Source of the DNA: Acidobacteriota bacterium
GTDB lineage: Bacteria > Acidobacteriota > Holophagae > Holophagales > Holophagaceae
Length of the DNA: 64,000 bases
Assembly: GCA_021794095.1 (NCBI GenBank)
Contig: JAJYRN010000002.1
Location: forward strand, 171,076-235,075
Direction: 5' to 3'
Both the position numbers and the translations under genes were made by a program. The notes under the pieces are model-generated. The model searched no databases. It was not told the DNA's origin and saw only the letters and a list, made by a program, of their open reading frames with translations. Positions 2,566 through 20,550 of the stretch are shown here, one piece after another (position 1 is the first letter of the stretch; every line of letters starts with the position of its first letter).

Positions 2566-5500
2566 ATGATGACTCAGCGAGAAACCAGGGCGATCCTCAA
2601 AGCAATCGTGAAAGGCCATATTCGCGTGGTGAACGGCAAGACCGTTTACGTCCACGAATACGACAATCACAACCCCATTGGCAGACCGGCCGAGCTTCAC
2701 GAGCGCACGGTGGTTGGGAGACATAGGAGTGGCGCACACTACCTCCGCGCCACGGACGCCGAAGATGGCGCCCAGATCCAGGCAGCCGCCGACCGCCTCG
2801 GCATCAAGACCGAGAAACGCCGCGCGGGAGCCAACCACCTCGGCCGCGTCGGGGCCTACGATCACCACTTCGTCGAGAGCCCCGAGCATGCGCTGGCGAT
2901 CCACAACGAACTGAAGAAGCACGCGCCCGAGGTCGAGGGAGAGAGCCACCCTCCACTCACTGTCACCCGGGCAGACGGCAAGAAGGTCAATGTGTCCGTT
3001 CCGGCCAACACCAAGCGCGAGAGCCTCGGAGATGGCCGCAAGCGGCTCAATGCGGGGAAGGCGAGCAGAGATGCGGAGAACGCCACCAAGGACGCTGAAG
3101 GGAATGGGCCCAAAGGGCACGCCAAGGCCGCCGAGGCCCACAATAAGGCCGCCCAGCAATGGCACGATCTGGGAGAAGAGACTATCGCCAAGCGCCATCT
3201 GGATATCGCGGCCAGCCACGCCGAGGCAACCGCCGCACCAACCAAAAAGCAGGCACCTGTCGCGGGTGGCGATCCCAACTATCTGCTGAAGCAGGACTGG
3301 TACAACAAGGACGGCAAGAAGTCGGGCGGAAAGAGCGCCGAGCAACTCCGAAAGGAAGATCAGGGCCAGAAGGCCCACGGCAACGCCTCGGCCGGCGGGA
3401 ATCCTCCAAGCAAGAAACCCACACCCCAGGAACTGAGCAACATCGCCCACGAGGCCAGCCGAAAGACAGGAACGGGTGAGCGCACCCACGGGGACGCCGC
3501 TGCTGCCCACTACGAAGCATCCGAGGCCCACTTCGGAGCCGCCGCTGGCGCCGGAGAGCCACCAACCCAGTCCCCGAAGGTCGCCACGGGGGGCGAGGAC
3601 GAGAGCCCCAAAGCCAAGTCCGATAAGGCATGGGAAGCCACGACCCACGCCGCCAACAAGGTCAAGGGCGAGGAAGGGTATGCAGAGGGCCACGGAAGGG
3701 CTGCTGGCCTCCACGAAGCCGCTGCAGACATCCATGCCCTCGCCCACGATGCAGGAAAGGGCCGCGACCACTACTACGAAGCCAGTCGCCACTATGCCCA
3801 TGCCGAAAGCCACGCCGCCCGGACCAACACGCCCGAAGCACACGCTGAATACACATCAAAGGTCGCCGGGAAACTCGGCTTTCATGCCGACAGCCAGACC
3901 CTCGGCGACAACTACGAATCCCATGGTCGTCACGCTGAGAAACACCTGCTGGCCATCGAGGCGCATGGCCGTGCGAGGTCCGCACATCAGAAGGCTGCCG
4001 AAGCATCCTTCTACGACAACAAGCAGAGCTATGACGATCACATGAAGAAGGCCGACTTCCATCACGCAGAGGTCCAGCGCCATAACGACGAGATGGGCAA
4101 AGGGCACAAGGAGATCGAGACCAGGCGGGAATCCGCCTTCACCGCCAGCAAAACGGCCAACCAGGAGAATACCCCCGAGGCCCATGCGGCTGCTGCCGAG
4201 GCGCATCGACACGCGGCCAAGATCAACTACGACGAGGAAAGTCGAGGCGAACACGAACAGAAGGCCAAGGAGCACGAGAGGGAGGCCGAGAAGGCCAAAC
4301 CTGCCGAGGCCCCCCAGCACTCCCCCGCCATCGCCAAGGGCATCAAGCAGGGCGACTTCCGCCATATCCTGGACAGTGGCACGGCCCGGAAGGCAGCTGA
4401 TTGGGAGGAGACGAAGCAGGCGAGCAAGCCCGTCAAGGGGAACGAGGACGAGGTTGCGGCCCTGCGCCTGCTCCACGAGAAGCACGGTGCCCATCCCGTC
4501 CGAACCCCTGGCCGCGATGTGATCGACCACCCCGGGCGCGATGCCGAGGGCAAGCCGCCCATGGAATTCATCGCCAAGGCTCCCGACGGCAGCCACCACT
4601 ACGTCAACACCGAGGGCTACGGCTACCCCCGCTACACCCGGCACATCCCTGACGATGTGGCCCAGAAGGCGGGGATCACCCAGCCGAAGGCCGCGGACGA
4701 GCCAACCACGGTTCGCCCCGCCGACGAGCCCGAGGGCCACGCTCTCCCGCCCAAGCCCACCGCGCCGCCTCCCGTCGCCGGCCCCCGCCCAACCGAGGCC
4801 CAGAACTTGGGGAATGAGGCTGGTCAGACCCACCAGAGCGCCATGCACATGCGCGATGCCGCGCGAGGCGCAGCCCACGAGCCGAAGGCCATCCGGGCCA
4901 TGAACTCATCCAATGACGCCCACCTCAAAACCGTCCAAGCCAAGGACGCCGCCGGGCACGGTCGTGCCAGGGCCGCGCACATCGCCGCCATGCATGCGCA
5001 CGAGGAGGCGGCAGGACACGCCTACACCCCCTCTCTACGGAACGGCCACCAGAGCATTGCCGACGCCCACAGCAAGCATGCTGACGCCCACGCGAAACTG
5101 GCCGACTCCATGAAGCCAAAGGAAGAGTTTGTCCCACCCATGTATCAGAACCCACACACCAAGGAGGCTGACAACCTCGTGGCCCAGGGGATGACGGGCA
5201 AGGTCGCATCCGATGCCAGCCACCGAGCCATCCGGGCCACCGGAGACGCCGTGACCAGTGGGAAGAAGGAGGACCACGACGACGCTCGGGCATTCCATCG
5301 CCTCGCCGCGACCGAGCACCGGGAGCACGCGAAGCGTCAGGCCCCCGACTCCAAGGAAGCGGCCCACATGGAGAAGGTCGCCCAGGCCCACGACAAGGCC
5401 GCCGACTGGCACAACGAGCGCGGGAACACACTCGCCAAGCCCAGCGACTTCGCCACCCCGGAATCCACGGACGCCTTCTACCAGAAGCGCGATGGCGATG

Positions 5501-7279: not shown

Positions 7280-8251
7280 ATGTCCGATCTCGCCACCCTC
7301 AACCCCTACGACCCCCAGGCCCTCGGCAACGTGGCCCTGGCGGCCATCACAGCGCTGGCCCAGGCCAAGGGGCGGTCCACCAACTACCTCACCCCCCTGG
7401 CCGCCATGCCGGAGGCCGAGGACGCCCGCCAGGCCCTCAAGGCCGCCATCGAGGCCGGCTGCCCGAAGGAGCACCTCCGCAATCTCATGAAGGCCGCCTT
7501 CGGCATGGACCTCGCCGGGCAGGCCAATGCCACCATCGGCGAGGCCGCCCTCTTCCCCGCCATGGAGCCGGAGATGGCCCAGGCCAGCCTCATCCCCGAC
7601 CACGAGGAGGGCCTGGAGCGCGCCCTGGCCAAGGCCATCCAGATCGCCACGACGCCCCGCGCCGTGGAGAAGGCCCAGGTCGGCGCCTACACCCGCACCC
7701 ACAACGGAAAGGTGATCCAGGTCCACGAATACCAGACCCGCCGCCAGGGCAGCATGAACGCCACCAAGGCCGCCCACGCATCCTCCGACGAGGCCCTCAA
7801 GAGTCGGAAGCCGGAGGATCACCAGAAGGCCAGCGCGGCCCACCTCGAGGCCCTGCGCCAGCACACCGAGGCCCACGAACTCAGCCCCGCCGATGTGGCC
7901 CAGGACCACAAGGAACTCATGGACCACCACCGCGCCGCGGCCCGGTGGCACTCCGACAAGGCCAAGGGCGCCACGGCAGCCTACGGCACCGAGAAGGTGG
8001 AGGCCCACAGGGGCGCCGCCAAGTCCTGGGACGAAGGGCGCCGGGAGGAACTGAAGGCCGGGAAGATCAAGGGCGCCTTCGCGGGGCCGCACGAGAGCTT
8101 CCCCATCGCCGGGCCCGAGGACGTCACCCACGCCTGGGATCTGGCCGGCCACGCCGAGAACCCCCAGGAGATCCGCGAGAACATCCGCCGGATCGCCAAG
8201 GATCACGGCTGGCAGCATGCGCTCCCTGGATCCGCCAAGCCGAACGCATGA
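7280..8251 (+). CDS. Phage protein with DUF6582-like C-terminal segment
   Basis: 323 aa; start ATG 7280 with AGGAG at spacing 6. Three parts are visible: an Ala-rich helical first ~125 residues; a middle with the shared tag-like motif VGAYTRTHNGKVIQVHEY (about residue 135) and His/Ala-rich helices like those of the 1303-aa protein; and a C-terminal ~50 residues (GPEDVTHAWDLAGHAENP, then IRENIRRIAKDHGW) like DUF6582, a small domain found in phage head/MuF regions. No enzyme motif is seen. It is probably a virion or internal protein. Confidence 0.7.
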   Translation: MSDLATLNPYDPQALGNVALAAITALAQAKGRSTNYLTPLAAMPEAEDARQALKAAIEAGCPKEHLRNLMKAAFGMDLAGQANATIGEAALFPAMEPEMAQASLIPDHEEGLERALAKAIQIATTPRAVEKAQVGAYTRTHNGKVIQVHEYQTRRQGSMNATKAAHASSDEALKSRKPEDHQKASAAHLEALRQHTEAHELSPADVAQDHKELMDHHRAAARWHSDKAKGATAAYGTEKVEAHRGAAKSWDEGRREELKAGKIKGAFAGPHESFPIAGPEDVTHAWDLAGHAENPQEIRENIRRIAKDHGWQHALPGSAKPNA

Positions 8252-8305
8252 CCCCTTGACAGTCCCAATGCGCATGCTCCGATGACGGGCCCTCGGGGAG
8301 GATCC

Positions 8306-8410
8306 ATGAAACGCGCCGCCGGAACCATCCTCGTCTGCGTCGGGTTGGCCCTCTGCCTCCCCGGCGTCCTCGTCGTCATGGCCGGCCAGTGGCTCCAGGA
8401 GCGCGCATGA
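8306..8410 (+). CDS. Small single-span membrane protein (34 aa)
   Basis: ATG 8306 has a GGGGAGGA ribosome site. The peptide is short: a KR start, then a hydrophobic stretch (TILVCVGLALCLPGVLVVM) and a short polar tail. Its stop overlaps the next ATG (ATGA at 8407), so the two are probably translationally coupled. No function is recognised. Confidence 0.6.
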   Translation: MKRAAGTILVCVGLALCLPGVLVVMAGQWLQERA

Positions 8411-9045
8411 ACCTCGATGCCCTCTTCACCCTGGCCGAGCACCTTGCCCGCGACCCCGAGGCGGCACGGGCCATCCAGAAGGCGCAGGCCGAGGAGCGCC
8501 CCATCGAGAAGTCGGACTACGACCAGAACCGGCGGGGTCGGATCGTCCACGTCCACAACAAGGTGCTTCCGCGAGGGCAGGAACAACTACCCGCCGGGGT
8601 CGTACGGGGGGGGAAGGCTGAGATCGCTGCATTACTCAACAATGCGGCCAATGGGTTCACGGCAGTGCGATTCGGGGATGTGGATACAAATCAAGCAAGG
8701 CGCATCCATAACGCTACTGGATTCGAGGTGGAGGGATTCCACCACAGGATCGATTTGGCTGCCATCAACCACGTAAGGAAGCACCATGGTCCCGGCCGCG
8801 AAGATGACCCGGCCCTGGAACCGATCACGGACGACGACATCCTCGCCATCCAGTCCATTGTTGCGAATCCAGACCACATCGAGCGGGGAAAGGACCAAGA
8901 CACAGGACTGCCCAGCATCATCTACACGAAGAAGATGGGTGACACATTCGTGATGGTCGAGGAAATCCGCTACGGCAGGCGAGAACTGGCCCTCAAAACA
9001 CTTATGAAGCGCCGAGCAAAAAACGACCCGGGGGGGAGGCCATGA
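8407..9045 (+). CDS. Phage BECR-like (PBECR-type) nuclease protein
   Basis: 212 aa from ATG 8407, overlapping the preceding stop. After a short helical start comes a variant of the shared tag (NRRGRIVHVHNKV, about residue 45). The second half reads INHVRKHHGPGRED, then PITDDDILAIQSIVANPDHI, then DTFVMVEEIRYGRRELALKT. Conserved H-x-x-x-H near the start of the domain, a 'pdxI' helix and a terminal T-x-x-K strand are the layout of phage barnase-EndoU-ColicinE5/D-RelE-like nucleases. Expected activity is on RNA. It sits between other polyvalent-type genes, suggesting delivery with phage DNA (inference). Confidence 0.65.
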   Translation: MNLDALFTLAEHLARDPEAARAIQKAQAEERPIEKSDYDQNRRGRIVHVHNKVLPRGQEQLPAGVVRGGKAEIAALLNNAANGFTAVRFGDVDTNQARRIHNATGFEVEGFHHRIDLAAINHVRKHHGPGREDDPALEPITDDDILAIQSIVANPDHIERGKDQDTGLPSIIYTKKMGDTFVMVEEIRYGRRELALKTLMKRRAKNDPGGRP

Positions 9046-9117
9046 CGCGAGTCTGTGCCTTTCGGCCCACCTCATACGCCCAAAGCGTTTCGGCTGGGGC
9101 TCCCCACCGGGCACTTA

Positions 9118-9153
9118 AAGGTTGATCCCTTCCACCCCCACCCGCAACCCCCT
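9118..9153 (+). repeat. Leader repeat, copy 2 (upstream of the giant helicase gene)
   Basis: Near copy of the segment at 7216-7252, again starting AAGGTTGATCCCTTCC and ending in a C-rich run before the gene start (16 bp before ATG 9169). It may be a duplicated 5' leader carrying a shared promoter or translation element. Confidence 0.7.
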
Positions 9154-9168
9154 TCTCCAGAGCACCCC

Positions 9169-12100
9169 ATGACCCAGCCCATCACATTCTCCGACCTGGC
9201 CGGCAACGTCCTCGACTGGATCCCGGTGGGATGGGACGCCCTCATCACGCCCAAGCCCCTCACCACCCCCGACCTCCACGCCCGCGCCCAATCGGCCCAG
9301 CCCCCCACCCGCATCCGCAAGGACCAGGCCGTCCCCAGCTACCCCAGGGCCCGCGTCGTCTTCCACGGCATCCCCATCGTCATCGAGAACCCGAAGGGCA
9401 GCGTCCGAAGCGGCATCGGCCAGAACGGAAATCGGTGGCGGACGGTCATGGCCCACGACTACGGGTTCATCGCCCGGACCTTCGGGGCGGACGGAGACGG
9501 GGTGGACGCCTTCATGGGCGATGACCTCAAGAGCGAGGCCGTGTTCGTGATCCATCAGGTGGATCCAGCGACCGGAGAATACGACGAGGACAAGGTGATG
9601 CTGGGCTTCCCCGACGAAGCCTCGGCCACGGCGGCCTACCTCGCCAACTACGAGCGCGGGTGGAAGGGCCTCGGGTCCATCCAGAAAATGAGGGTTGGCG
9701 ACCTCAAGGCATGGCTGCGGGAGGGCCAGGAGGGGCGCCCCATCCAGAAATCCGAACCGGAGCCAGATGGCAGCCGATGGGTCACCGTCCACCATGGGAG
9801 CGGGGAGGGCCAGCCGATCAAGGTCATGCCAGCCAAGGGCCACAAGGGCGTCTGGAGAGTAGTTGGCGGGGCCGGGGGGGCCCTCAACGGTCTCCGCCTA
9901 CACGGGCTCAAGAGCCCGGAGGAATACCAGAAAGAGGCCCGGGAGAAGGCCAAAGAGAAGCGCGCCGCGGAGCGAGAGGCCCTGTCCAAGATGACCCCCG
10001 AGGAACGCGCCCAATACAAAGCCGAGAAGGCCGAGGGGAAAGAGAAGCGCCGCCAGGCGGAGGATGCCTTCGCAGACAAGGTGCTTGGTCCCGAGCAGAA
10101 GGGGCTCCTGGGAGAGGACGGGGAGCCGGAACCAGACGACCCAAAGGCCCAGGCCGAGGCGCGCCGGGAGCGCCTGAAAGCGGCCCATGCGGCCGTGCGG
10201 GAGGCCGAGCGCAAACTGGTGCTCGACGTGGACGCCCGGGTCCAGGCTGGAATTCCGGTCATCGGGGGATATGGCCCCCACGGGCTGGACATTGACGACC
10301 TCGTCTCCGAGGCGGACCCCAAGGGCCCTGGCTACCAGCGGGCCCTGGCCAAGCGGGCCGAGATGGCCGGCCTCAGTGCCGACAAACTGGCGGAGCAGGT
10401 GGCCGACATCAAGGAGCGCCGTGCGGCGGCAGAGGGACGGACCATCCCAGAGCCTTCCGGGCGGGAGGAGGGGGAAGGGAGGACGGAAGAACCAGCCCCC
10501 GAAGGCCAGCAGACCCCCCTGCCGGGCATGGGAGGAGCCGTGCCCAAGGATGACCACCAGGCCACCCAAGCGGCCAATGTGGAGGCCCACAAGGCCAGCA
10601 AGGAGCTGCAGGCCCACAAGGCCGCGGCCGTCCGCGAGGCAGTGAAGGAGGCCGTCCAGAAGAACGAGCGCCTCGCCACGCTCCTCCAAGCTCGCCGAGA
10701 ACTGCGCGAAGCCTACAAGGCCAGCACCCCACAGGCCAAAGAGCGAGTGTTCGAAGAGGGTTATCAGATGCCCATCGAGGAAGTGGCCGAGGCCGCCGCC
10801 CAGGACGTCTACCAGCAGATGCTCACCAAGAACATGGTCGGGTTCCTGCAGGAGGTCGGGGAAGCCTACCCGGAAGGTGAGCCCCTGGACCGGTTCGACC
10901 CCCAGCCGATGGACGGCCTCCATGCCACCCGCGGGGCGGCCGCCTTCGATGCCCTCCACGAGGTCGCCCTGGCGGCCGTGGGCCAGGGAATGATCGAGCG
11001 CGATGTGGTGGAGGCCATAGGCCCGGAGGGCGCCGCCCAGCTGGTTGCCCGTGGCATTCGGCGGGAATTCAGCCCCGACGACCAAGCCGCCATCATTGAG
11101 GCCCTGGAGCATCACCACTTGCAGGAGCAGGAGGAACTCCCGAAGGTGATGGACGAGGCCCAGGCCCTGCGCGCCGAAGCCAACCGGCTGCGGGCGGATC
11201 TCGCGGAGAACCCCCGGGATCTCTCCCTGGCAGTCGAGATGCAGAAGAACCGCCTAGACATCCTGAAGGAAGCCAGGCGCACCCTGGGAGGCACCCTGGG
11301 ACGCATCGAGGCCCGGGCAGCTCTGATCGCCTCGCTGCAGGCGGGGAAGGATCAGGAGAACCTCACTCTCCCCCTCGGGAAGATGACTCCCGAGAAGGCC
11401 GTCCAGACCGCCGCGGCCCTGGGCCTCAAGGAAGGCGACTACAAGATCGACCACGAGGCCGGCGAAGCCGTGATCCACCTCAACGGCCAGGGGCAGGACC
11501 GCCTCGTGGCACCCATCGACACCGCCGCCCTCCACGAGCGCGACCTCGCCCTGGCCATAAAGGGTGGACAGCTGGACCGCCCGGGATACCTTCCCGCCGG
11601 GTTCGCGGATCGCACCGACAGCCGCTATGACCACCCTATCCAGGAAGCCCCCCAGTTCCGCCAGCGCCTCCAGATCCAGGACGACATGGGCCCCGAGCAG
11701 GTGCGGGACGCCCTCATGGATCATGTGGGCAGCCGCCTCGCAGACGGGGAGCGCCCGGCAGACATCCTCAACGACGTCATGTCGGGCACCTTCATGGCGT
11801 CCAGCGTGCCAGAGGGGGCCCTCAAGTCCTATGTGAACGCCCTGTCGGAGGTCTTCCCCCTGCAGGAGCATGTCAAAGACAAGGAGGGGAACCCGATCTA
11901 CCAGAAGGCAGAGGATGGGACCGAGTACCCAAAAATGCGCCTGCGGACCATGGACGAACTGGCAGGCCACTTCGACCAGACGCTGGACCGGTTCCTGGAG
12001 AAGCAGGGCGCAGCCGCGGACACGGCCCTCGCCCGGCAGTGGGTGGATGCCGACAGCCCCGACTTTGCAGAGGCCGTCCACCGGGCACTGGCGGAGGATC

Positions 12101-15100
12101 CCCGAACCACGGCGGCCTTCACCCCCGCCGGCGAACTCAGCGCCGAGCAGCAGGCCCACATCCGCGACTACTTCTACCGGGAGGTGAAGGGAATCGACCC
12201 GGATGCCGCCCCGGCAGGTGTCAAGGAATCCTTGACTACTCCAGTCGGTGATAAAACATCACCGACTGCCCAGCCGCAGACCAAGGAGGACAAGGCCCAG
12301 GCCCGCGCCATGGAGATCGCCGGCCCCGAGCCCGAACAGTGGGAAGTGGACATGTTCGGGGAGCAAACCCACTCCCCGGTCTGGGTGGACTGGAAGTCCC
12401 GCTACGACGCGGCGAAGGAAGCCGTGGAAAACGGCCAGGACGCCGACATGGAGGCCAATGCATCGACCTACGTCGCCCCGAGCGGCCAGAAAGTCACAGC
12501 CGCGGCCGTCGCCACTGCCCCAGAGGACAGCCCGTGGGCGCTCTACGTCCAGGCTATGGGAGGGCTCAAGCAGGCCCAGGCTGCCGTCCAGGACCAGATG
12601 AAGGGGGCCTTCGCAGAGAGGTTCAAGGCCCACCACGAGCGCCTCACAGGGAAGGGCCTGAAGCTGGGCAAGACCGAGCTGGCCCACCGCGACCGGTTCC
12701 TGGGAGCCACCATGGACCCCGAGCGCCTGGCGGCCTTGCGGAAGAACCAGTCCAGCCTCGCCACCAGCCTCCGGAAGCGCGACAGCCGCGGCCGCCTCCT
12801 GGAGGGGGGGGTGGCCGATCAGATGGACGAGGCCCGCCGGAAGCGCGAGGCCGCTCTGCAGGGCCAAAGCGCCCTCTTCGAGAAGGAAGAGGAGCCGGGC
12901 CTCCGCCAGACCCTCGGGCCCACGCTCGAGGCCCAGATCCGGGCCCACATCCCCGGCCTCGCCGCAGCATTCCAGGGCACCCGTCGGGCCGTGGACGTGC
13001 ATGAAGGTGTCCGGATGGACGGTGACCGCGTGGGCCAGCAGCGGGCCATCCAGGCCATCACGAAACTCAAGCGCATCGGGCTCTTCCTGGGAGCCGGGTG
13101 CGTCTACGGCGGGACAGAACTGAGATGCGAGAAACGCGGTATCACACGCTCGTTCTATGACTGGTGGATATCCGGAGAAACGCCTTGGGTCCAGACGATC
13201 CAACCGGATGGGACCACCGGCATCCGCAAATCGTCCCATGTGTTCATCAAGGGGATGGGGAGGATGGTCCGGATAGTCTGCTCAAATGGGACATCCATGG
13301 TCGTCACACCGGGGCATAGGTTCCTCGGTGAGTTTGGATGGATCGCCGCAGGGCTTATTCAACCGGGGACCAGACTGCTCGAATCCGGTGAGCCATCCGA
13401 AACAGAGAATGACCCGCTACTAGATCTCGTCACGCAAGCGTGCCGTCTGGATTCCGTTTGCGCCGGAGAGCGCGAAGGCGTTGCTTCTCCCGCTCTTCAT
13501 CCGTCCACACACGCCGAGGAATGGGGGAATTCTTCCACCGCTCCTTCATCTGCACACGCGCTCTTTCACGCCGCTCATCGGTCCATTCTGGATGGCACTC
13601 TGGACGGCCCCCATTCTCACGCATTCGAGCCAGCCCTTGCGGAGAATGTCTTGGAACGCGGCCTAAAAGTTCTTCTCGAAGATGGTCTGAATTCGCTGCA
13701 TACAGAGACAGATTGTCTGGATGGTTGTTCCCTCGATTTGAATCCAAGTGATGAACAACCTCATCGGGAAGAAGATGGCGCCCCAGTTTCTGCTCCATCA
13801 CAAGGCGGTGCTCACGCACATATCCATTTGAATTTGCATGAGGATGATCCGGACAGTGGACCAGGACATACCCGGATTTATCGACCGTCCTTCCGCCACG
13901 CCAGCATGGATTTTTTGACCCGAAACCTGGCCGTGCAGGACGACGAGGAATTCCGGCCTGTTCAAGCCGAGCCCCAACCGAACCACCAGTCAACCCGAAG
14001 CGCTTCCCAATCTCGGAAGTGCTCAACTCCTCGTCTACATACAAAGCGCGGAGAACATCGACAGGGATCACAACCTTGGGGGGCCTTCCCATACACCACC
14101 GTCCTTTCAGTCGAGGAAGCAGGAGAACACATCATCTTCGATATCTCAGTCCCGGTTGAGCATAACTATACATCAAGTGGCCTGATTAGTCATAATTCGG
14201 GCAAGACGCCCGTCATGCTGGGAGCCCTCACGGAACTCCAGAAGGCCGGCAAGGTGCAGAAGTCCATCCTGGCGGTCCCGTCCATCGTGCAGAAGCAATT
14301 CGGAGCCGAGGCCATCCGGTTCATCGACCCAAACAGTGGGTTCCATGTCCACGCCCAGCCCGGGGAGAGTTTCGAGGAGCGGCTCCGGGCCTACCAGGAT
14401 CCCGACCAGCATGCCGTGGTGATCACCCACCAGGCACTGCGGGACGACACCCTGCGGATCCTCCAGAACCACCTGGGCATGGACCCGCAGCAGACCCACG
14501 AATGGGCCATGAGCGTGCCGAAGGACAAGCTGGCCGCCACCGTGAAGGAAGCCTTCGCCAAGCACGGCATCAACTTCCAGGCTCTCATGGTGGACGAGGC
14601 CCATGGCGCCCTGGACCGGGAAGGGAAGGCCGACAGCACCTTCTCCAGGATCCTGAACGCCCACAGCCGGAACGTCAGCCACATGGTCATGGCCACTGGG
14701 AACCCCATCAAAAATGACACCAGCGAGGCGTGGTCGGACCTCCACCACCTGGATCCCTACCGCTACCCCGAGGAGAGCAAGGACGAATTCATGCGCCGAT
14801 ATGGGACGGACGCAGACCTGTCCCGCCGGAGCCTCGCCCAGCAGCTGACGAGATACTGGGTGAACGCCCGCCTCAAGCTGCCCACCGAGGCCAACCGCCT
14901 GGACGACAAGATCCCCCTCGAGGCCCACCAGCATGCGGCGATCGAGAAAGTGGAAAGGGCCGCAGGCAAGCTCCGCACCGGAGCGGGAGGGGACGAGCGC
15001 ATGAAGTGGGCCAAGGAACTGGCCCCCGAAGCCTTCGAAGGGCACCCCGAAAGCGACCACGAGGCCATCGCCAAGATGGTGGCCCGCAGCGTCGGAACCT

Positions 15101-15675
15101 TCCGAGAGGCGGCCATGAACCGGGCGATCAACCTGGACCCCGCCGGCGGCAAGATGAAACGAGCCGTGGGCATCGCCAAGGATGCGGCCGCAGAGGGAAA
15201 GCTCGTCGTGATGTTCGCCAGGAACCTCGCCGCGGTGGAGGCCCTCCACAAGAACCTCGAGGCCGCGGGCCTGAAGGTGGCCAGCCTGACCGGCAAAGAC
15301 TCCTCCAAGAGCAAAGGTGAGAAGCTGGCTGCCTACCAGCGGGGCGAGCACCAAGTCATCGTCATGAGCGATGCTGGAAGCACCGGGGCCAACCTGCAGA
15401 TGGGCAAGGTCATGGTCCACATTGACCAACCCATGACGGCCATGACCATGCAGCAGCGGGACGCCCGGATCCACCGCCTGGGCCAGAAGGACAACGTGGA
15501 GATCCACCACCTGCTGGCCGACCACGAATGGGAACGCGCCAATGTGGAGCGGGTGAAGCGGAAGGACAGCCTCGGAGCCGTGTACCAGGCCCCGGAGGGA
15601 TACCTGGACGATTCGGGCATCGCCGGCACCCTCCGCGAGATCCGGGCCCGGCGGAATCAGGAGCGTGTGGCATGA
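9169..15675 (+). CDS. Giant polyvalent protein: pyrophosphatase-like domain plus SNF2-type helicase, with intein
   Basis: 2168-aa precursor from ATG 9169 (an in-frame ATG at 9055 is less likely). Residues ~90-185 contain AHDYGFIARTFGADGDGVDA, then DEDKVMLGF, matching the inorganic-pyrophosphatase-like domain of phage polyvalent proteins. A tag-like PIQKSEPEPDGSRWVTVHH follows, then a long charged, coiled-coil-rich middle. A helicase begins near residue 1300: Walker A GAG/SGKT (split by an intein, residues 1311-1676), Walker B VDEAH (~1807), a GSTGANLQMGK motif and a QQRDARIHRLGQ motif VI typical of SNF2/RapA proteins. Splicing would leave ~1802 aa. Such proteins are thought to enter the cell with phage DNA. 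DNA remodelling or anti-defence is plausible but inferred. Confidence 0.85.
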   Translation: MTQPITFSDLAGNVLDWIPVGWDALITPKPLTTPDLHARAQSAQPPTRIRKDQAVPSYPRARVVFHGIPIVIENPKGSVRSGIGQNGNRWRTVMAHDYGFIARTFGADGDGVDAFMGDDLKSEAVFVIHQVDPATGEYDEDKVMLGFPDEASATAAYLANYERGWKGLGSIQKMRVGDLKAWLREGQEGRPIQKSEPEPDGSRWVTVHHGSGEGQPIKVMPAKGHKGVWRVVGGAGGALNGLRLHGLKSPEEYQKEAREKAKEKRAAEREALSKMTPEERAQYKAEKAEGKEKRRQAEDAFADKVLGPEQKGLLGEDGEPEPDDPKAQAEARRERLKAAHAAVREAERKLVLDVDARVQAGIPVIGGYGPHGLDIDDLVSEADPKGPGYQRALAKRAEMAGLSADKLAEQVADIKERRAAAEGRTIPEPSGREEGEGRTEEPAPEGQQTPLPGMGGAVPKDDHQATQAANVEAHKASKELQAHKAAAVREAVKEAVQKNERLATLLQARRELREAYKASTPQAKERVFEEGYQMPIEEVAEAAAQDVYQQMLTKNMVGFLQEVGEAYPEGEPLDRFDPQPMDGLHATRGAAAFDALHEVALAAVGQGMIERDVVEAIGPEGAAQLVARGIRREFSPDDQAAIIEALEHHHLQEQEELPKVMDEAQALRAEANRLRADLAENPRDLSLAVEMQKNRLDILKEARRTLGGTLGRIEARAALIASLQAGKDQENLTLPLGKMTPEKAVQTAAALGLKEGDYKIDHEAGEAVIHLNGQGQDRLVAPIDTAALHERDLALAIKGGQLDRPGYLPAGFADRTDSRYDHPIQEAPQFRQRLQIQDDMGPEQVRDALMDHVGSRLADGERPADILNDVMSGTFMASSVPEGALKSYVNALSEVFPLQEHVKDKEGNPIYQKAEDGTEYPKMRLRTMDELAGHFDQTLDRFLEKQGAAADTALARQWVDADSPDFAEAVHRALAEDPRTTAAFTPAGELSAEQQAHIRDYFYREVKGIDPDAAPAGVKESLTTPVGDKTSPTAQPQTKEDKAQARAMEIAGPEPEQWEVDMFGEQTHSPVWVDWKSRYDAAKEAVENGQDADMEANASTYVAPSGQKVTAAAVATAPEDSPWALYVQAMGGLKQAQAAVQDQMKGAFAERFKAHHERLTGKGLKLGKTELAHRDRFLGATMDPERLAALRKNQSSLATSLRKRDSRGRLLEGGVADQMDEARRKREAALQGQSALFEKEEEPGLRQTLGPTLEAQIRAHIPGLAAAFQGTRRAVDVHEGVRMDGDRVGQQRAIQAITKLKRIGLFLGAGCVYGGTELRCEKRGITRSFYDWWISGETPWVQTIQPDGTTGIRKSSHVFIKGMGRMVRIVCSNGTSMVVTPGHRFLGEFGWIAAGLIQPGTRLLESGEPSETENDPLLDLVTQACRLDSVCAGEREGVASPALHPSTHAEEWGNSSTAPSSAHALFHAAHRSILDGTLDGPHSHAFEPALAENVLERGLKVLLEDGLNSLHTETDCLDGCSLDLNPSDEQPHREEDGAPVSAPSQGGAHAHIHLNLHEDDPDSGPGHTRIYRPSFRHASMDFLTRNLAVQDDEEFRPVQAEPQPNHQSTRSASQSRKCSTPRLHTKRGEHRQGSQPWGAFPYTTVLSVEEAGEHIIFDISVPVEHNYTSSGLISHNSGKTPVMLGALTELQKAGKVQKSILAVPSIVQKQFGAEAIRFIDPNSGFHVHAQPGESFEERLRAYQDPDQHAVVITHQALRDDTLRILQNHLGMDPQQTHEWAMSVPKDKLAATVKEAFAKHGINFQALMVDEAHGALDREGKADSTFSRILNAHSRNVSHMVMATGNPIKNDTSEAWSDLHHLDPYRYPEESKDEFMRRYGTDADLSRRSLAQQLTRYWVNARLKLPTEANRLDDKIPLEAHQHAAIEKVERAAGKLRTGAGGDERMKWAKELAPEAFEGHPESDHEAIAKMVARSVGTFREAAMNRAINLDPAGGKMKRAVGIAKDAAAEGKLVVMFARNLAAVEALHKNLEAAGLKVASLTGKDSSKSKGEKLAAYQRGEHQVIVMSDAGSTGANLQMGKVMVHIDQPMTAMTMQQRDARIHRLGQKDNVEIHHLLADHEWERANVERVKRKDSLGAVYQAPEGYLDDSGIAGTLREIRARRNQERVA
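13099..14196 (+). other. Intein inside the helicase Walker A motif
   Basis: In-frame insertion of 366 codons. It begins with Cys (CVYGGTELRCEKRG), has a block-B-like segment (NGTSMVVTPGHRFLG) and ends with a block F/G segment (HIIFDISVPVEHNYTSSG, then LISHN) followed by extein Ser. Removing it joins GAG to SGKT, restoring a perfect P-loop GAGSGKT. The recognisable splicing parts are about 107 aa at the N-terminus and 34 aa at the C-terminus, the size of a mini-intein. The middle ~220 codons are simply the reverse reading of an antisense HNH gene. Confidence 0.92.
13430..14092 (-). CDS. HNH homing endonuclease encoded antisense within the intein
   Basis: 220 aa on the strand opposite the intein, fully inside it. 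ATG 14092 has AAAGGA upstream. Residues ~10-50 form an HTH (LSTSEIGKRFGLTGGSVGAR). The catalytic region is YVREHRLVMEQKLGRHLLPD, then EVVHHLDSNRGNNHPDNLSL, a complete HNH_3-type motif with the HH pair and Asn residues. The C-terminus is basic and helical. It occupies the place where inteins normally carry their endonuclease domain, but reversed and as a separate gene, while the sense frame stays open. It presumably cuts intein-free alleles of the helicase gene to spread the intein. Confidence 0.88.
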   Translation of the reverse strand: MGRPPKVVIPVDVLRALYVDEELSTSEIGKRFGLTGGSVGARLEQAGIPRRPARPGFGSKNPCWRGGRTVDKSGYVLVHCPDHPHANSNGYVREHRLVMEQKLGRHLLPDEVVHHLDSNRGNNHPDNLSLYAANSDHLREELLGRVPRHSPQGLARMRENGGRPECHPEWTDERRERARVQMKERWKNSPIPRRVWTDEEREKQRLRALRRKRNPDGTLA

Positions 15676-17897: not shown

Positions 17898-19508
17898 CTA
17901 CCCGAGTCGTCGGATGAGTTCCACAGGGGTCTCATCGAACCGCTCGAACTGCTGGTAGACCAAGGGGGTGATGGCCTGGATGACGGTCACCCGGTCGGCC
18001 CCGTCGTGGGCCATGTGCCACTTGGTGTTGGAGACGTTCACCACCACCAGCCGGGCGCGCCCGTTGACGCCGCGGAGGTAACCGCGCCACTGGTCCAGGC
18101 CCCGGATCTGGCCGTTCTGCTGCTCGTCGGTGAAGAGGAACAGCACATCCACGGGCGCCTGATCATGGAACCACCGGATGGCATCGCCAATGCTGGTTCC
18201 GTTGGTTTGGTTGACGTCCACTGGGAGTAGGTTGTGCAGGATGGCCTCGGGGGGACAGCCCTTGAGGTAGGGCAGGCGCATGGCCGGGCGGCGACCGTAG
18301 TGTAAGGGGGAAGGCTGCAGATCGCCCCCCTCGGGGTGCGGAAGATTGTCGAAGAACACCAGATGGCGATCCGCGCAGGACGCAAGGATCGGGGTGGCCA
18401 TGGTGGCCGCCAGATACCAGCAGGAGGCACCATCCTCCTGGTAGGCATCCGCCATGGAAGGGCTGATATCCATGGCAACGCCCACCCGCTTGCCCTCGAG
18501 GCCCGGGAGGGGCCGCGCAGCCAGGCGCGAAAGGAAGGCCACCAGGGGCTCTCGGAACCGATTCGGGGCGAAAGCGATGGGGCGCAGCACATCGTGGGGC
18601 ACCAGGCGGAGACGCCCAAGATCCTGGGCGGCCAGGAACTGGTCCAACTGCTCGGGGGTGATGACCCCCTTCTCGTCCAGGGACCGCAGGTTGAGGAGCA
18701 CCTGCAGGGGCGACATCTCACCCAGGATGGCCTTCCAGACCACCTGCCGCCCAGCCGGAACAATGCCCTTGGTGACATTGAAAGGAAGATGGTTGAACCC
18801 GATGAGGGAGGCCGCCATCTCGTCGTCCACGCCGTCCTTGAGGGCCTCCAGGGCAGCCTGCCGCGGGGTGGCCGCAACGCGATCATCCCCGAGCACGTAG
18901 CGGAAGGGAGCGGCCTGCAGCACGTTCAACCCAACAGGATGCACCAGCCGGAGCAGGCGCCGGAGATCATCCCGATCCGAAAGGGTCATGTCCTCCAGGC
19001 GCTGAGGCTTCATGCCGGCCAGGGCCCGGCCAAGGACACGCTGCGCCCGGCGCCCGAGGCCACGGCCGAACACCTTGCCCTTGAACACGAGGGCAAGCTC
19101 GAGCAGCTGCCCAGCAGAGTAGGTCTGAAGGAGATCCACCACCTGGGCCTCGAATTCCGGAGTCCACCGCGGACCAGGGCCCTCAGCTCCCTCGGGTTCA
19201 AGGGTCGAGACGAGGGCGCCCACGGCCAGCTTCGGAAGCAGCTTGAAATTGGCCCGGCGGCTCACCTTCGCCGCGGAGAGGAGGAAACCGGGATCGTCCT
19301 GGGCGGCCTGACGGCAGAGGTCCACCATCTCCTGGGTCTGCTCGGCCTCCTTCACATAGAACCCGTCCTTGAGCACGCCCGTGAGGGCCACGCGGGCCAC
19401 GGACTGCTGCAGGTTCTCGGAGAAGGCCGACAGGCCCTCGTGGTTGGTAGCGTCGGGCTGGGCAAGCCCGGTTGGGCGGGTGAGGCCCTGGGTCTGGGCG
19501 AAGCGCAT
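17898..19508 (-). CDS. rsr: Ro60 / Rsr RNA-binding protein (TROVE plus vWA)
   Basis: 536 aa; start ATG 19508 has GGAGG ten bases upstream. Residues ~1-340 are the HEAT-repeat TROVE domain (SENLQQSVARVALTGVLKDG, DPGFLLSAAKVSRRANFKLL, FNHLPFNVTKGIV). The C-terminal third is a von Willebrand A fold with a MIDAS motif (VAMDISPSM) and later NQTNGTSIGDAIRW. Ro60 rings bind Y RNAs and misfolded or decaying RNAs, often with polynucleotide phosphorylase. Four Y-RNA-like genes lie directly upstream on the same strand, so this is a complete Ro60-Y RNA locus inside a prophage. Confidence 0.93.
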   Translation of the reverse strand: MRFAQTQGLTRPTGLAQPDATNHEGLSAFSENLQQSVARVALTGVLKDGFYVKEAEQTQEMVDLCRQAAQDDPGFLLSAAKVSRRANFKLLPKLAVGALVSTLEPEGAEGPGPRWTPEFEAQVVDLLQTYSAGQLLELALVFKGKVFGRGLGRRAQRVLGRALAGMKPQRLEDMTLSDRDDLRRLLRLVHPVGLNVLQAAPFRYVLGDDRVAATPRQAALEALKDGVDDEMAASLIGFNHLPFNVTKGIVPAGRQVVWKAILGEMSPLQVLLNLRSLDEKGVITPEQLDQFLAAQDLGRLRLVPHDVLRPIAFAPNRFREPLVAFLSRLAARPLPGLEGKRVGVAMDISPSMADAYQEDGASCWYLAATMATPILASCADRHLVFFDNLPHPEGGDLQPSPLHYGRRPAMRLPYLKGCPPEAILHNLLPVDVNQTNGTSIGDAIRWFHDQAPVDVLFLFTDEQQNGQIRGLDQWRGYLRGVNGRARLVVVNVSNTKWHMAHDGADRVTVIQAITPLVYQQFERFDETPVELIRRLG

Positions 19509-19567
19509 GAGGGGGGCGCCTCCAAAGAGAAGCCCCGGCGCACGGGCCGGGGCGAGGTGGAGAAGAA

Positions 19568-19668
19568 CGGAGACGAAGGAAGGGGACGGGATCAGGTGGG
19601 TTCGAACCACCGGGCTCGGTTTGCACCGAGTTCTATCCGCAGATGAAGCCCGACACAGGGCGTCTCCG
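19568..19668 (-). ncRNA. Y-RNA-like ncRNA, copy 4 (nearest to rsr)
   Basis: The ends pair perfectly over 8 bp (5' CGGAGACG with 3' CGTCTCCG). Inside the 5' arm is the conserved motif GACGCCCT-...-TTCATC, and the 3' arm has CCCCTTCCTTCGTC. A second helix pairs CGGG with CCCG next to a T-T mismatch. The apical part holds a hairpin (CTCGG/CCGAG) and a T-arm-like hairpin (GGTGG-TTCGAAC-CCACC) but no D-arm. Confidence 0.72.
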
Positions 19669-19676
19669 AAGGGCTC

Positions 19677-19742
19677 CACGACGGTGAGGGAAGGCGGGGG
19701 GTTTCTATCATGGCAAGATGAACCCCCGCCGAGGGCGTCGTG
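19677..19742 (-). ncRNA. Y-RNA-like ncRNA, copy 3 (short form)
   Basis: About 66 nt. The ends pair (5' CACGACG with 3' CGTCGTG) and the 5' arm again carries GACGCCCT-...-TTCATC. The apical part is a single GC hairpin (GGCGGGGGTT with AACCCCCCGCC), without tRNA-like arms. This resembles the simple stem of Y RNAs lacking the tRNA-mimic module. Eight to ten bases separate it from its neighbours. Confidence 0.68.
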
Positions 19743-19752
19743 AAAATTGCGT

Positions 19753-19884
19753 GGGGGACGATGAAAGGGCCTCGGCAACCCTGAAGGGTCATTTGCTCTA
19801 CCAACTGAGCTACCCAGGTTCCTTGCGGGCCTGAGACTGGACTCGAACCAGCGACACGATGAAAGCCGAAACAGGGCGCCCCCC
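19753..19884 (-). ncRNA. Y-RNA-like ncRNA, copy 2, with permuted tRNA-like module
   Basis: Ends pair as GGGGGGCG with CGTCCCCC (one G-U). The 5' arm has GGCGCCCT-...-TTCATC; TTTCGGC pairs with GCCGAGG in the 3' arm. The apical module reads in permuted tRNA order: T-arm (GCTGG-TTCGAGT-CCAGT), an acceptor-like helix CTCAGG/CCTGGG closed by an inner GCAA loop, then a canonical D-arm (TAGCTCAGTTGGTAGAGC). This is the layout expected of YrlA-type Y RNAs that mimic tRNA. Confidence 0.78.
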
Positions 19885-19892
19885 TGATTGGA

Positions 19893-20030
19893 ACCCCATG
19901 ACGATGGAAGGTGGACAGCATTTGTAGGCGCTCTACCACTAAGCTACAGCCGCCGAAGCCGCTGGCAGGATTCGAACCTGCGCTCTCCCGCTCCCAAAGC
20001 GATGAACGCTGACCAAGGGCGTCATGGAGT
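19893..20030 (-). ncRNA. Y-RNA-like ncRNA, copy 1, with permuted tRNA-like module
   Basis: Ends pair over 11 bp (5' ACTCCATGACG with 3' CGTCATGGGGT, one G-U). The 5' arm has GACGCCCT-...-TTCATC; GGTCAGC pairs with GCTGTCC around a T-T mismatch. The apical module runs T-arm (GCAGG-TTCGAAT-CCTGC), an acceptor-like helix CAGC..GCTG closed by a TTCG tetraloop, then D-arm (TAGCTTAGTGGTAGAGC). It begins 21 nt after the end of tRNA-Pro, so the two may share a transcript. Confidence 0.78.
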
Positions 20031-20051
20031 GATCTGGTTTCAAAGAACTGG

Positions 20052-20125
20052 TCGGAGCGGGAGGATTCGAACCCCCGGCCTTCTGCTCCCAAAGCAGTCG
20101 CGCTACCAAGCTGCGCCACGCTCCG
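20052..20125 (-). tRNA. tRNA-Pro (anticodon TGG)
   Basis: Full cloverleaf on the minus strand: acceptor CGGAGCG/CGCTCCG with discriminator A, D-arm GGCGCAGCTTGGTAGCGC, anticodon loop TTTGGGA, T-arm CGGGG-GTTCGAA-type. CCA is not encoded. It lies just upstream of the Y-RNA array. Confidence 0.92.
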
Positions 20126-20403
20126 AAGGGGCCCTGGGCCGCTTGCCCTGACTCCACACCGGAAAACCGGGGGCTCACGTGGGGCCGCGCCTTGCTGAAG
20201 GGAACCCGCCAGCAACGGGCGCCCAGGGAAGGGATCGCAGGGCACCCGGGAGTGCGCCCGGGCCGGCGCTGCGCCAGCGGCGACCGTTGCCCTGCGAAAT
20301 GCTGCTGGGTGGCGGCCGGACACCAGGCGTCCCCGGCGAAGGCTCATCGCTCATCCGCCGCCCCCTTCCGGGATCTGCGGCACCCAGCGGAATCAAGGAT
20401 TCG
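20126..20403 (-). other. Structured RNA region of unknown class between two tRNAs
   Basis: No convincing gene. On the minus strand several strong hairpins follow one another: GCTGGGTG with CACCCAGC as an outer stem; GCAGGGCA with TGCCCTGC enclosing CCCGGG-CGCACT-CCCGGG; GCGCC..TTGCTG with CAGCAA..GGCGC; and CCGG-TTTT-CCGG. It contains GACGCCTGGTGTCCGG, reminiscent of the Y-RNA 5' motif but without TTCATC. It may be a processed non-coding RNA or just GC-rich spacer. Confidence 0.4.
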
Positions 20404-20477
20404 TGGCAGGGGCGGGATTCGAACCCGCGGCCTCTTGGGTATGAGCCAAGCGAGCTACCAGACTGCTCCACCCTGCG
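20404..20477 (-). tRNA. tRNA-Met (anticodon CAT), initiator-like
   Basis: Cloverleaf on the minus strand with acceptor arms GCAGGG/CCCTGC, D-arm GGAGCAGTCTGGTAGCTC, anticodon stem-loop CTTGG-CTCATAC-CCAAG and T-arm GCGGG-TTCGAAT-CCCGC. The first base pair is an unpaired C-C and the D-loop is initiator-like, but only two of the three G-C pairs of the initiator anticodon stem are present. CAT could also be an Ile2 tRNA. Confidence 0.85.
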
Positions 20478-20509: not shown

Positions 20510-20550
20510 CATGGGATAGAATTCGAACCCGCGCAACCCCAAAAAACACC
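20510..20550 (-). other. Possible tRNA-like relic
   Basis: The minus strand reads GCGCGGGTTCGAATTCTATCC, a T-loop (TTCGAAT) with an imperfectly paired stem. No D-arm or anticodon arm can be placed around it. It may be a decayed tRNA 3' half. Confidence 0.3.

Follow-up and report, generated by a model that had tools for sequence, protein, structure and literature searches.

Four Y RNA genes beside a divergent Ro60 gene in a prophage: two candidate permuted tRNA mimics with counterparts at other phage Ro60 loci

Introduction

Y RNAs have been known for decades, and their function is still debated. A prophage locus in a 64,000-nucleotide (nt) stretch of DNA from an Acidobacteriota bacterium (contig JAJYRN010000002.1) raises the question of what such RNAs may bring to their protein partner, as four of them (Y1 to Y4) are predicted directly upstream of a gene for a divergent Ro60. 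This whole stretch is referred to below as the window, and coordinates refer to it unless another locus is named. The initial annotation of positions 17898-20125, an interval that also takes in the Ro60 gene and a tRNA-Pro gene, had described the four RNAs as real Y RNA genes and their number as striking; a tRNA-Met gene and the tRNA-like bodies of the Y RNAs were overlooked.

Results

Four Y RNAs upstream of the Ro60 gene

The 23-nt motif GRCGCCCT-N9-TTCATC occurs in the window in exactly four exact copies (20023-20001, 19880-19858, 19739-19717, and 19664-19642), each of them on the minus strand; 100 dinucleotide shuffles of the window contained no copy. Each copy belongs to one of four RNAs lying in tandem on the strand of the Ro60 gene, the start codon of which is located 59 nt downstream of the end of Y4. 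In each of the four, the bases before and within GRCG are predicted to pair with the 3′-end of the RNA as an outer helix, and the nine bases between CCCT and TTCATC to pair with bases just 5′ of a pyrimidine-rich strand (CCYUYC) as an inner helix, in which, by reading, Y1 and Y4 have a U-U mismatch. The terminal helices comprise 11 base pairs (bp) in Y1 (20030/19893), 8 bp in Y2 (19884/19753), 10 bp in Y3 (19745/19674, with a 7-bp core at 19742/19677), and 8 bp in Y4 (19668/19568). Both helices differ in sequence among the four copies with pairing kept, a comparison between copies of one array and not between independent loci. The chance values obtained by shuffling were 0.0014, 0.31, 0.0012, and 0.063 for a single helix in Y1 to Y4, respectively, and <0.0005, 0.078, 0.0015, and 0.063 for two helices.

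The motif copies, the kept pairing, and homology to other Y RNAs agree with the earlier view that these are real RNA genes, and the presence of four predicted Y RNA genes beside Ro60 is confirmed. With the boundaries drawn here the RNAs measure 138, 132, 72 (66 in the core), and 101 nt, compared to 66-138 nt initially, and are separated by 8, 7, and 5 nt, in place of the 8-10 nt that follow from the earlier boundaries. The four share a Y stem but have different bodies.

A second genome of the same genus (L006) contains the same stretch, 94-99% identical to the window. Between the two, Y1, Y4, and tRNA-Pro are unchanged, whereas Y2 and Y3 have five differences apiece and tRNA-Met has seven; identity in the Ro60 gene is 95.3%. 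The outer helix of Y2 has a G-U pair in the window and A-U in L006, and its acceptor has G-U and G-C, respectively, such that pairing is kept in both places.

Y1 and Y2 as candidate permuted tRNA mimics

Inside the Y stem of Y1 the order of elements is anticodon arm, T arm, closed acceptor, and D arm (Table 1). The anticodon arm combines a 7-nt loop, U33, a purine at position 37, a stem of at least 3 bp, and a distance of 4-5 nt to the T arm, a combination that Y2, Y3, and Y4 lack; its loop, UUUGGGA, is common to Y1 and the adjoining tRNA-Pro. Y1 thus reads as a tRNA that has been opened between positions 26 and 27 and had its two ends sealed. In Y2 the small hairpin follows the D arm, and a canonical anticodon arm is lacking. 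Y3 possesses no tRNA part, and Y4 has a hairpin (CUCGG-UGCAAA-CCGAG) and a T arm with no clear D arm. The permuted order of T arm, closed acceptor, and D arm within a Ro60-docking stem is consequently a feature of Y1 and Y2 only.

Table 1. Features of the Ro60 locus in the window, in the order of the minus strand
Feature	Coordinates	Strand	Description
tRNA-Met(CAU)	20403..20477	-	ARAGORN; Rfam 63.3 bits
tRNA-Pro(UGG)	20049..20125	-	ARAGORN; Rfam 61.9 bits; directly upstream of Y1
Y1 RNA	19893..20030	-	138 nt; Y stem and permuted tRNA body (predicted)
Y1 anticodon arm	19987..20003	-	AUCGC-UUUGGGA-GCGGG (Pro UGG); then 5-nt variable loop AGAGC
Y1 T arm	19965..19981	-	GCAGG-UUCGAAU-CCUGC
Y1 closed acceptor hairpin	19947..19964	-	7 positions, one G-G mismatch, UUCG tetraloop; directly 3′ of T arm
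Y1 D arm	19930..19944	-	Sequence and covariance model R1
Y2 RNA	19753..19884	-	132 nt; Y stem, T arm, closed acceptor, D arm, small hairpin
Y3 RNA	19674..19745	-	72 nt (66 core); two-helix Y stem and hairpin; motif and helices
Y4 RNA	19568..19668	-	101 nt; Y stem, hairpin, T arm; motif and helices
Ro60 gene	17898..19508	-	536 amino acids (aa), ATG at 19508; HEAT-ring TROVE region and vWA domain

The Rfam YrlA model (RF02553) gave 28.4 bits for Y1 and 34.1 bits for Y2 (E value 5.9e-5, spanning 19872-19766), both below the gathering score of 69. A covariance model (R1) built from 39 RNAs of other phages, with no window sequence, gave 76.1 bits for Y1 (E value 2.6e-21) and 43.6 bits for Y2 (E value 2.8e-11). 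With YrlA, including the structure of Salmonella YrlA (6CU1), Y1 and Y2 share the terminal Ro60-docking stem, the order of T arm, closed acceptor hairpin, and D arm, and adjacency to Ro60. YrlA is known to resemble the D, T, and acceptor arms of tRNA and to be modified by DusA and TruB (PMC8394870). The docking-loop sequences differ (GACG-CCCU...UUCAUC in the window, GGCGA-AUGC...CUACA in YrlA). The anticodon stem of YrlA consists, in the Rfam consensus, of strands running into the Y stem, whereas the anticodon arm of Y1 is a separate complete hairpin, and its Y stem enters between tRNA positions 26 and 27, unlike that of YrlA. At the level of sequence Y1 and Y2 qualify as circularly permuted tRNA mimics of the YrlA kind.

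Anticodon-arm Y RNAs at phage Ro60 loci

Searches with alignments of phage Ro60s yielded 182 IMG/VR Ro60 loci, 142 of which contain a T arm closely followed by a D arm. Among 171 T arm/D arm units that lie near phage Ro60 genes and also have a docking motif, an anticodon arm (at least 3 bp, U33, purine 37) is present in 92, compared to a mean of 4.8 and a maximum of 11 in 300 shuffles. Its distance to the T arm is 5 nt in 69 of these units and 4 nt in the other 23, while other distances tried gave 0-4 units; a spacing of 4-5 nt is that of tRNA. Outer and inner Y helices could be assigned in 92/92 units, a count that is no test in itself given that the helices were sought. The docking motif of the window was found in no other fetched locus except that of the sister genome L006, and the phage units tested score 30-51 bits against Rfam YrlA, again under the gathering score. 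The anticodon-arm layout is common in phages.

The alignment of 39 diverse units from which R1 was built provides a comparative test: 27 of 34 pairs are changed on both sides, and 92.8% of cells are paired, which falls to 39-48% when the partner strand is slid by 1-3 columns. Both Y helices, the T stem, and the acceptor hairpin covary strongly. In the anticodon stem this is true of two pairs but not of the three outer ones, one strand of which is formed by the UUC of the docking motif and is fixed for that reason. One reading of the window array is that it is a tRNA cluster in decay, or a set of tRNA genes with introns, and has no Y RNA function: the T and D arms resemble tRNA pieces, tRNA genes are adjacent, and ARAGORN calls some units of this type tRNA. 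Yet the acceptor folds back on itself as a closed hairpin 3′ of the T arm, with 7/7 of its pairs covarying in homologues, every unit is enclosed by a Y stem, and no substitution separates the window from L006 in Y1 or Y4. Decay is accordingly considered highly improbable, and intron-bearing tRNAs were rejected on the sealed and covarying acceptor.

The anticodon loops show a bias. After the removal of similar units, 67 were left; U occupies position 36 in 39 of them, G in 24, C in three, and A in one (U or G in 63/67), and the combination at positions 36-37 is UA in 39 and GG in 21. At position 36, ordinary tRNAs from these loci carry U 101 times, G and C 56 times each, and A 75 times (chi-square P 6e-8, which is indicative, as the similarity filter removes shared phage ancestry only partly). 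Outside Y RNAs, U36-A37 is a typical tRNA site of N6-threonylcarbamoyladenosine (t6A), and G36-G37 one of 1-methylguanosine (m1G).

This bias, together with the complete arms with U33, purine 37, and a 4-5 nt variable loop in 92/171 units, is in keeping with a decoy role of the tRNA-like bodies, in which the anticodon arms especially would bait the anticodon nucleases that a host releases against phages; the bait would be stabilised by its sealed acceptor and by Ro60, and cleavage of a Y RNA would be harmless to translation. The loci lie near tRNA genes, two of them have an RtcB RNA ligase beside Ro60, and Hughes et al. had earlier suggested that YrlA inhibits the anticodon nuclease competitively (PMC7790460). 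On the other side, approximately half of the phage units, as well as Y2, Y3, and Y4 of the window, lack a canonical anticodon arm; fragments of Salmonella YrlA were undetected, and it is hence no substrate there (PMC7790460); and no nuclease was matched to any anticodon. Such a decoy is, in our estimation, rather unlikely.

The roughly half of the phage units without a canonical anticodon arm are, by reading, YrlA-like, in that the segment 5′ of the T arm can pair with that 3′ of the D arm and the resulting helix continues into the Y stem. Another proposal is a phage counterpart of the particle formed by Rsr, Y RNA, and PNPase, in which Y1 and Y2, with the module order of YrlA, would tether host PNPase to Ro60 such that structured RNA is degraded. 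The mechanism is known from Deinococcus radiodurans, where a Y RNA tethers Rsr to PNPase (PMC7790460; PMC8394870). But published YrlA bodies have no anticodon arm (PMC8394870), and the arm and the bias at positions 36-37 are left unexplained; the arm is unneeded by a tether and predicted by a decoy. We regard a PNPase tether as a tentative possibility, somewhat doubtful as it stands.

An anticodon hairpin on the 3′-side was also considered as a general feature and rejected, as it occurs in 30 of 79 units compared to 29 in shuffles; the extra hairpin of Y2 is therefore probably not a second class of anticodon arm.

A divergent Ro60 protein

When compared by hhalign with an alignment of four Ro60s of the phage type, the window protein gave a probability of 96.2 (E value 2.3e-9) over 407 columns, and the related Ro60 of locus L009 passes the Pfam TROVE model at 62 bits. 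The metal ion-dependent adhesion site (MIDAS) of the vWA domain is complete (D347-x-S349-x-S351, T438, and D461) and invariant in 32 Ro60s. AlphaFold returned a predicted local distance difference test (pLDDT) score of 43 from the single sequence; the model used was that built on the alignment of these Ro60s (pLDDT 82, predicted template modelling score 0.84). Foldseek matched it to solved Ro60s with a best E value of 5.6e-16 and template modelling (TM) scores of 0.69-0.72, the whole range extending to an E value of 8.7e-10 and TM scores of 0.5-0.72 at a probability of 1.00. The top matches include Ro60 complexes with misfolded pre-5S rRNA, the Ro autoantigen (1yvp and 2i91), Rsr of D. radiodurans, and the Ro60 of Thermus phage phiLo. 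The predicted fold bears out the initial assignment, and the protein is best described as a very divergent Ro60: tblastn against IMG/VR and phage records gave no match, and phmmer against PDB sequences gave chance matches only. With the D. radiodurans particle (RYPER) it would share, by homology, the Ro60 ring and the Y RNA tether; the two proteins are approximately 15-17% identical in fold alignments, and the PNPase partner established there is only putative here.

Array size and layout at other loci

Four Y RNAs are within the range of other loci, and the earlier statement that one or two are usual finds no support. YrlA matches number at least five in Acanthopleuribacter pedis and at least five in a relative (G070), approximately five Y RNAs were seen by eye at IMG/VR locus L034, and the Ro60 gene of Caulobacter phage CcrPW (L041, 1910-2750) is preceded by five permuted tRNA-like units. 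Since arrays of several copies occur elsewhere, the locus does not stand out by having four; Y RNAs lie directly upstream of Ro60 in other phage loci too. A counter based on motif and helix gave 1.7 chance hits per locus in shuffles compared to 2.5 observed; with a strict threshold it yields a lower bound only, and no firm distribution of array sizes is claimed.

Several of these loci deserve a brief description. The chromosomal Ro60 loci of A. pedis and a relative (L007, 8626-9742, and L008, 4518-5504) hold at least five YrlA-type RNAs each, and in L007 three such RNAs have, by eye, the anticodon loops Met CAU, Ile GAU, and Lys UUU. Two of the CcrPW units have anticodon arms (Leu UAG and Asn GUU); in the part of the record that was read, the CcrPW units carry no annotation as RNA genes. 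A 279,967-bp phage record (L070) contains several permuted units upstream of Ro60, two of them with anticodon arms (Gln CUG and Asn GUU).

Y RNAs with a tRNA body in the normal order are rare, being represented by two RNAs of L009 (YB and YC) and a few weaker cases. Unconstrained folding of YB and YC gives a Y stem, D arm, anticodon hairpin, T arm, and closed acceptor. Set against the permuted units, they suggest that the docking stem can sit at different joints of the cloverleaf. L009 (5812-13213), from another genus, is a likely phage region with 30 tRNA genes; its four Y RNAs (8061-8692) lie upstream of Ro60 (8778-10235), with an RtcB RNA ligase downstream (10839-12005). In L051 an RtcB-like RNA ligase open reading frame (ORF) at 3057 on the plus strand lies directly 3′ of the phage Ro60 gene.

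The position of Ro60 beside tRNA genes, and sometimes RtcB, might be taken to indicate a platform for tRNA surveillance or repair, in which Y RNAs gate Ro60 for damaged or misfolded tRNAs and RtcB carries out the repair in some phages. It is congruent with this that the ROT/TROVE protein has been grouped with RNA repair in jumbo phages (PMC7824862). RtcB was found in the flanks of only two searched loci, however, and none was found in the window; we think it improbable that this is the role of the particle.

Prophage setting and neighbouring sequence

The locus is part of a clear prophage, as the initial annotation had it. Genes for a portal protein, terminase, tail fibre, RecT, integrase, DNA methyltransferase, S24-type repressor, and antirepressor lie near it, and all of these are on the same contig (C24) of the 3.0-Mb genome as the Ro60 locus. 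The host probably belongs to the Holophagae, the class of Acidobacteriota in which A. pedis is placed. The minus-strand order is tRNA-Met, a 277-nt gap, tRNA-Pro, the four Y RNAs, and Ro60. The gap (20126-20402) is non-coding and 97.8% identical in L006; it was considered as a further RNA and rejected, its very stable fold being no more so than those of shuffles (z -1.0). Upstream of tRNA-Met, at about 20510-20535 on the minus strand, is a T-arm-like remnant, GCGCGGGTTCGAATTC, perhaps of a decayed tRNA. Elsewhere in the window a large phage helicase protein (9055-15675, plus strand), which also has an InPase domain, contains an intein-like insert (aa 1395-1714), and antisense within this insert is an HNH_3 endonuclease ORF (13430-14092, minus strand; 33.7 bits, cut-off 24.8).

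Discussion

The gene order, the four RNAs, their shared stem, and the tRNA geometry of Y1 and Y2, as read from sequence, together with the predicted fold of the protein, point to a prophage Ro60 ribonucleoprotein assembled from a divergent ring-shaped Ro60 and the four RNAs encoded just upstream. The common docking stem (outer helix, asymmetric internal loop, inner helix, and UUCAUC) would hold different modules on the Ro60 ring: in Y1 and Y2 a tRNA-like body with a sealed acceptor end and its opening elsewhere, in Y3 none, and in Y4 a T arm and hairpin. Ro60 would be expected to bind Y1 to Y4, and one transcript may run from tRNA-Met through tRNA-Pro and the Y RNAs to Ro60. Judging by this layout, the RNAs may serve as bait or as adaptors for tRNA-handling proteins, which the tRNA-like bodies could recruit to the Ro60 particle during infection; candidates are a ribonuclease such as PNPase, modification enzymes, and an attacking anticodon nuclease. 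A Ro60 particle with tRNA-like adaptors is, in our view, probable, while any single protein partner is doubtful to unlikely.

Several observations weigh against this reading. Helices alone are significant for Y1 and Y3 and not for Y2 and Y4; the motif and homology carry these two. The search of the window with R1 did not match Y3 or Y4. Nearest-neighbour energies favour a different fold of Y1 by 13 kcal/mol (-57.3 compared to -44.3 kcal/mol for the cloverleaf), and the cloverleaf consequently depends on the comparative evidence. The protein matches Pfam vWA_Ro60 at 25.1 bits, under the cut-off of 27.7, and the TROVE model not at all; as fold and profile comparison agree on Ro60, we read these scores as a limit of sensitivity. 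Finally, no sigma-70-type promoter was found for the locus.

Phage Ro60s and tRNA-like Y RNAs are both already known, and it is the anticodon-arm class, not the array, that is of interest here. The loci of phiLo (PDB 9l5y), Listeria phage CKA15, CcrPW, and the 182 from IMG/VR have in common with the window a phage-encoded Ro60 with Y RNAs nearby, often close to tRNA genes; CKA15 is a recent case in which Y RNAs near Ro60 are suspected only (PMC12282133). The window differs in its own docking motif and in a protein too divergent for direct tblastn or phmmer matches. The literature covered mentions D, T, and acceptor arms of Y RNAs and no complete anticodon arm; the primary papers of 2013-2018 lie outside that coverage, and prior mention there is possible. 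A broader proposal would be that a large Y RNA class in phages has gone unrecognised, made up of complete permuted tRNAs on a Ro60-docking stem, whose U36-A37 or G36-G37 loops bait anticodon-targeting host nucleases or position-37 modification enzymes, although we would at present bet against it.

If phage Y RNAs are indeed whole tRNA mimics with a chosen anticodon, this would give a specific and testable guess at their binding partners. The cultured phage CcrPW has the same architecture, and tests need not await the host of the window. The window protein is a distant relative of the human Ro60 autoantigen, and the finding, if true, would link Ro60, a lupus autoantigen family, to the contest between phages and bacteria over tRNA.

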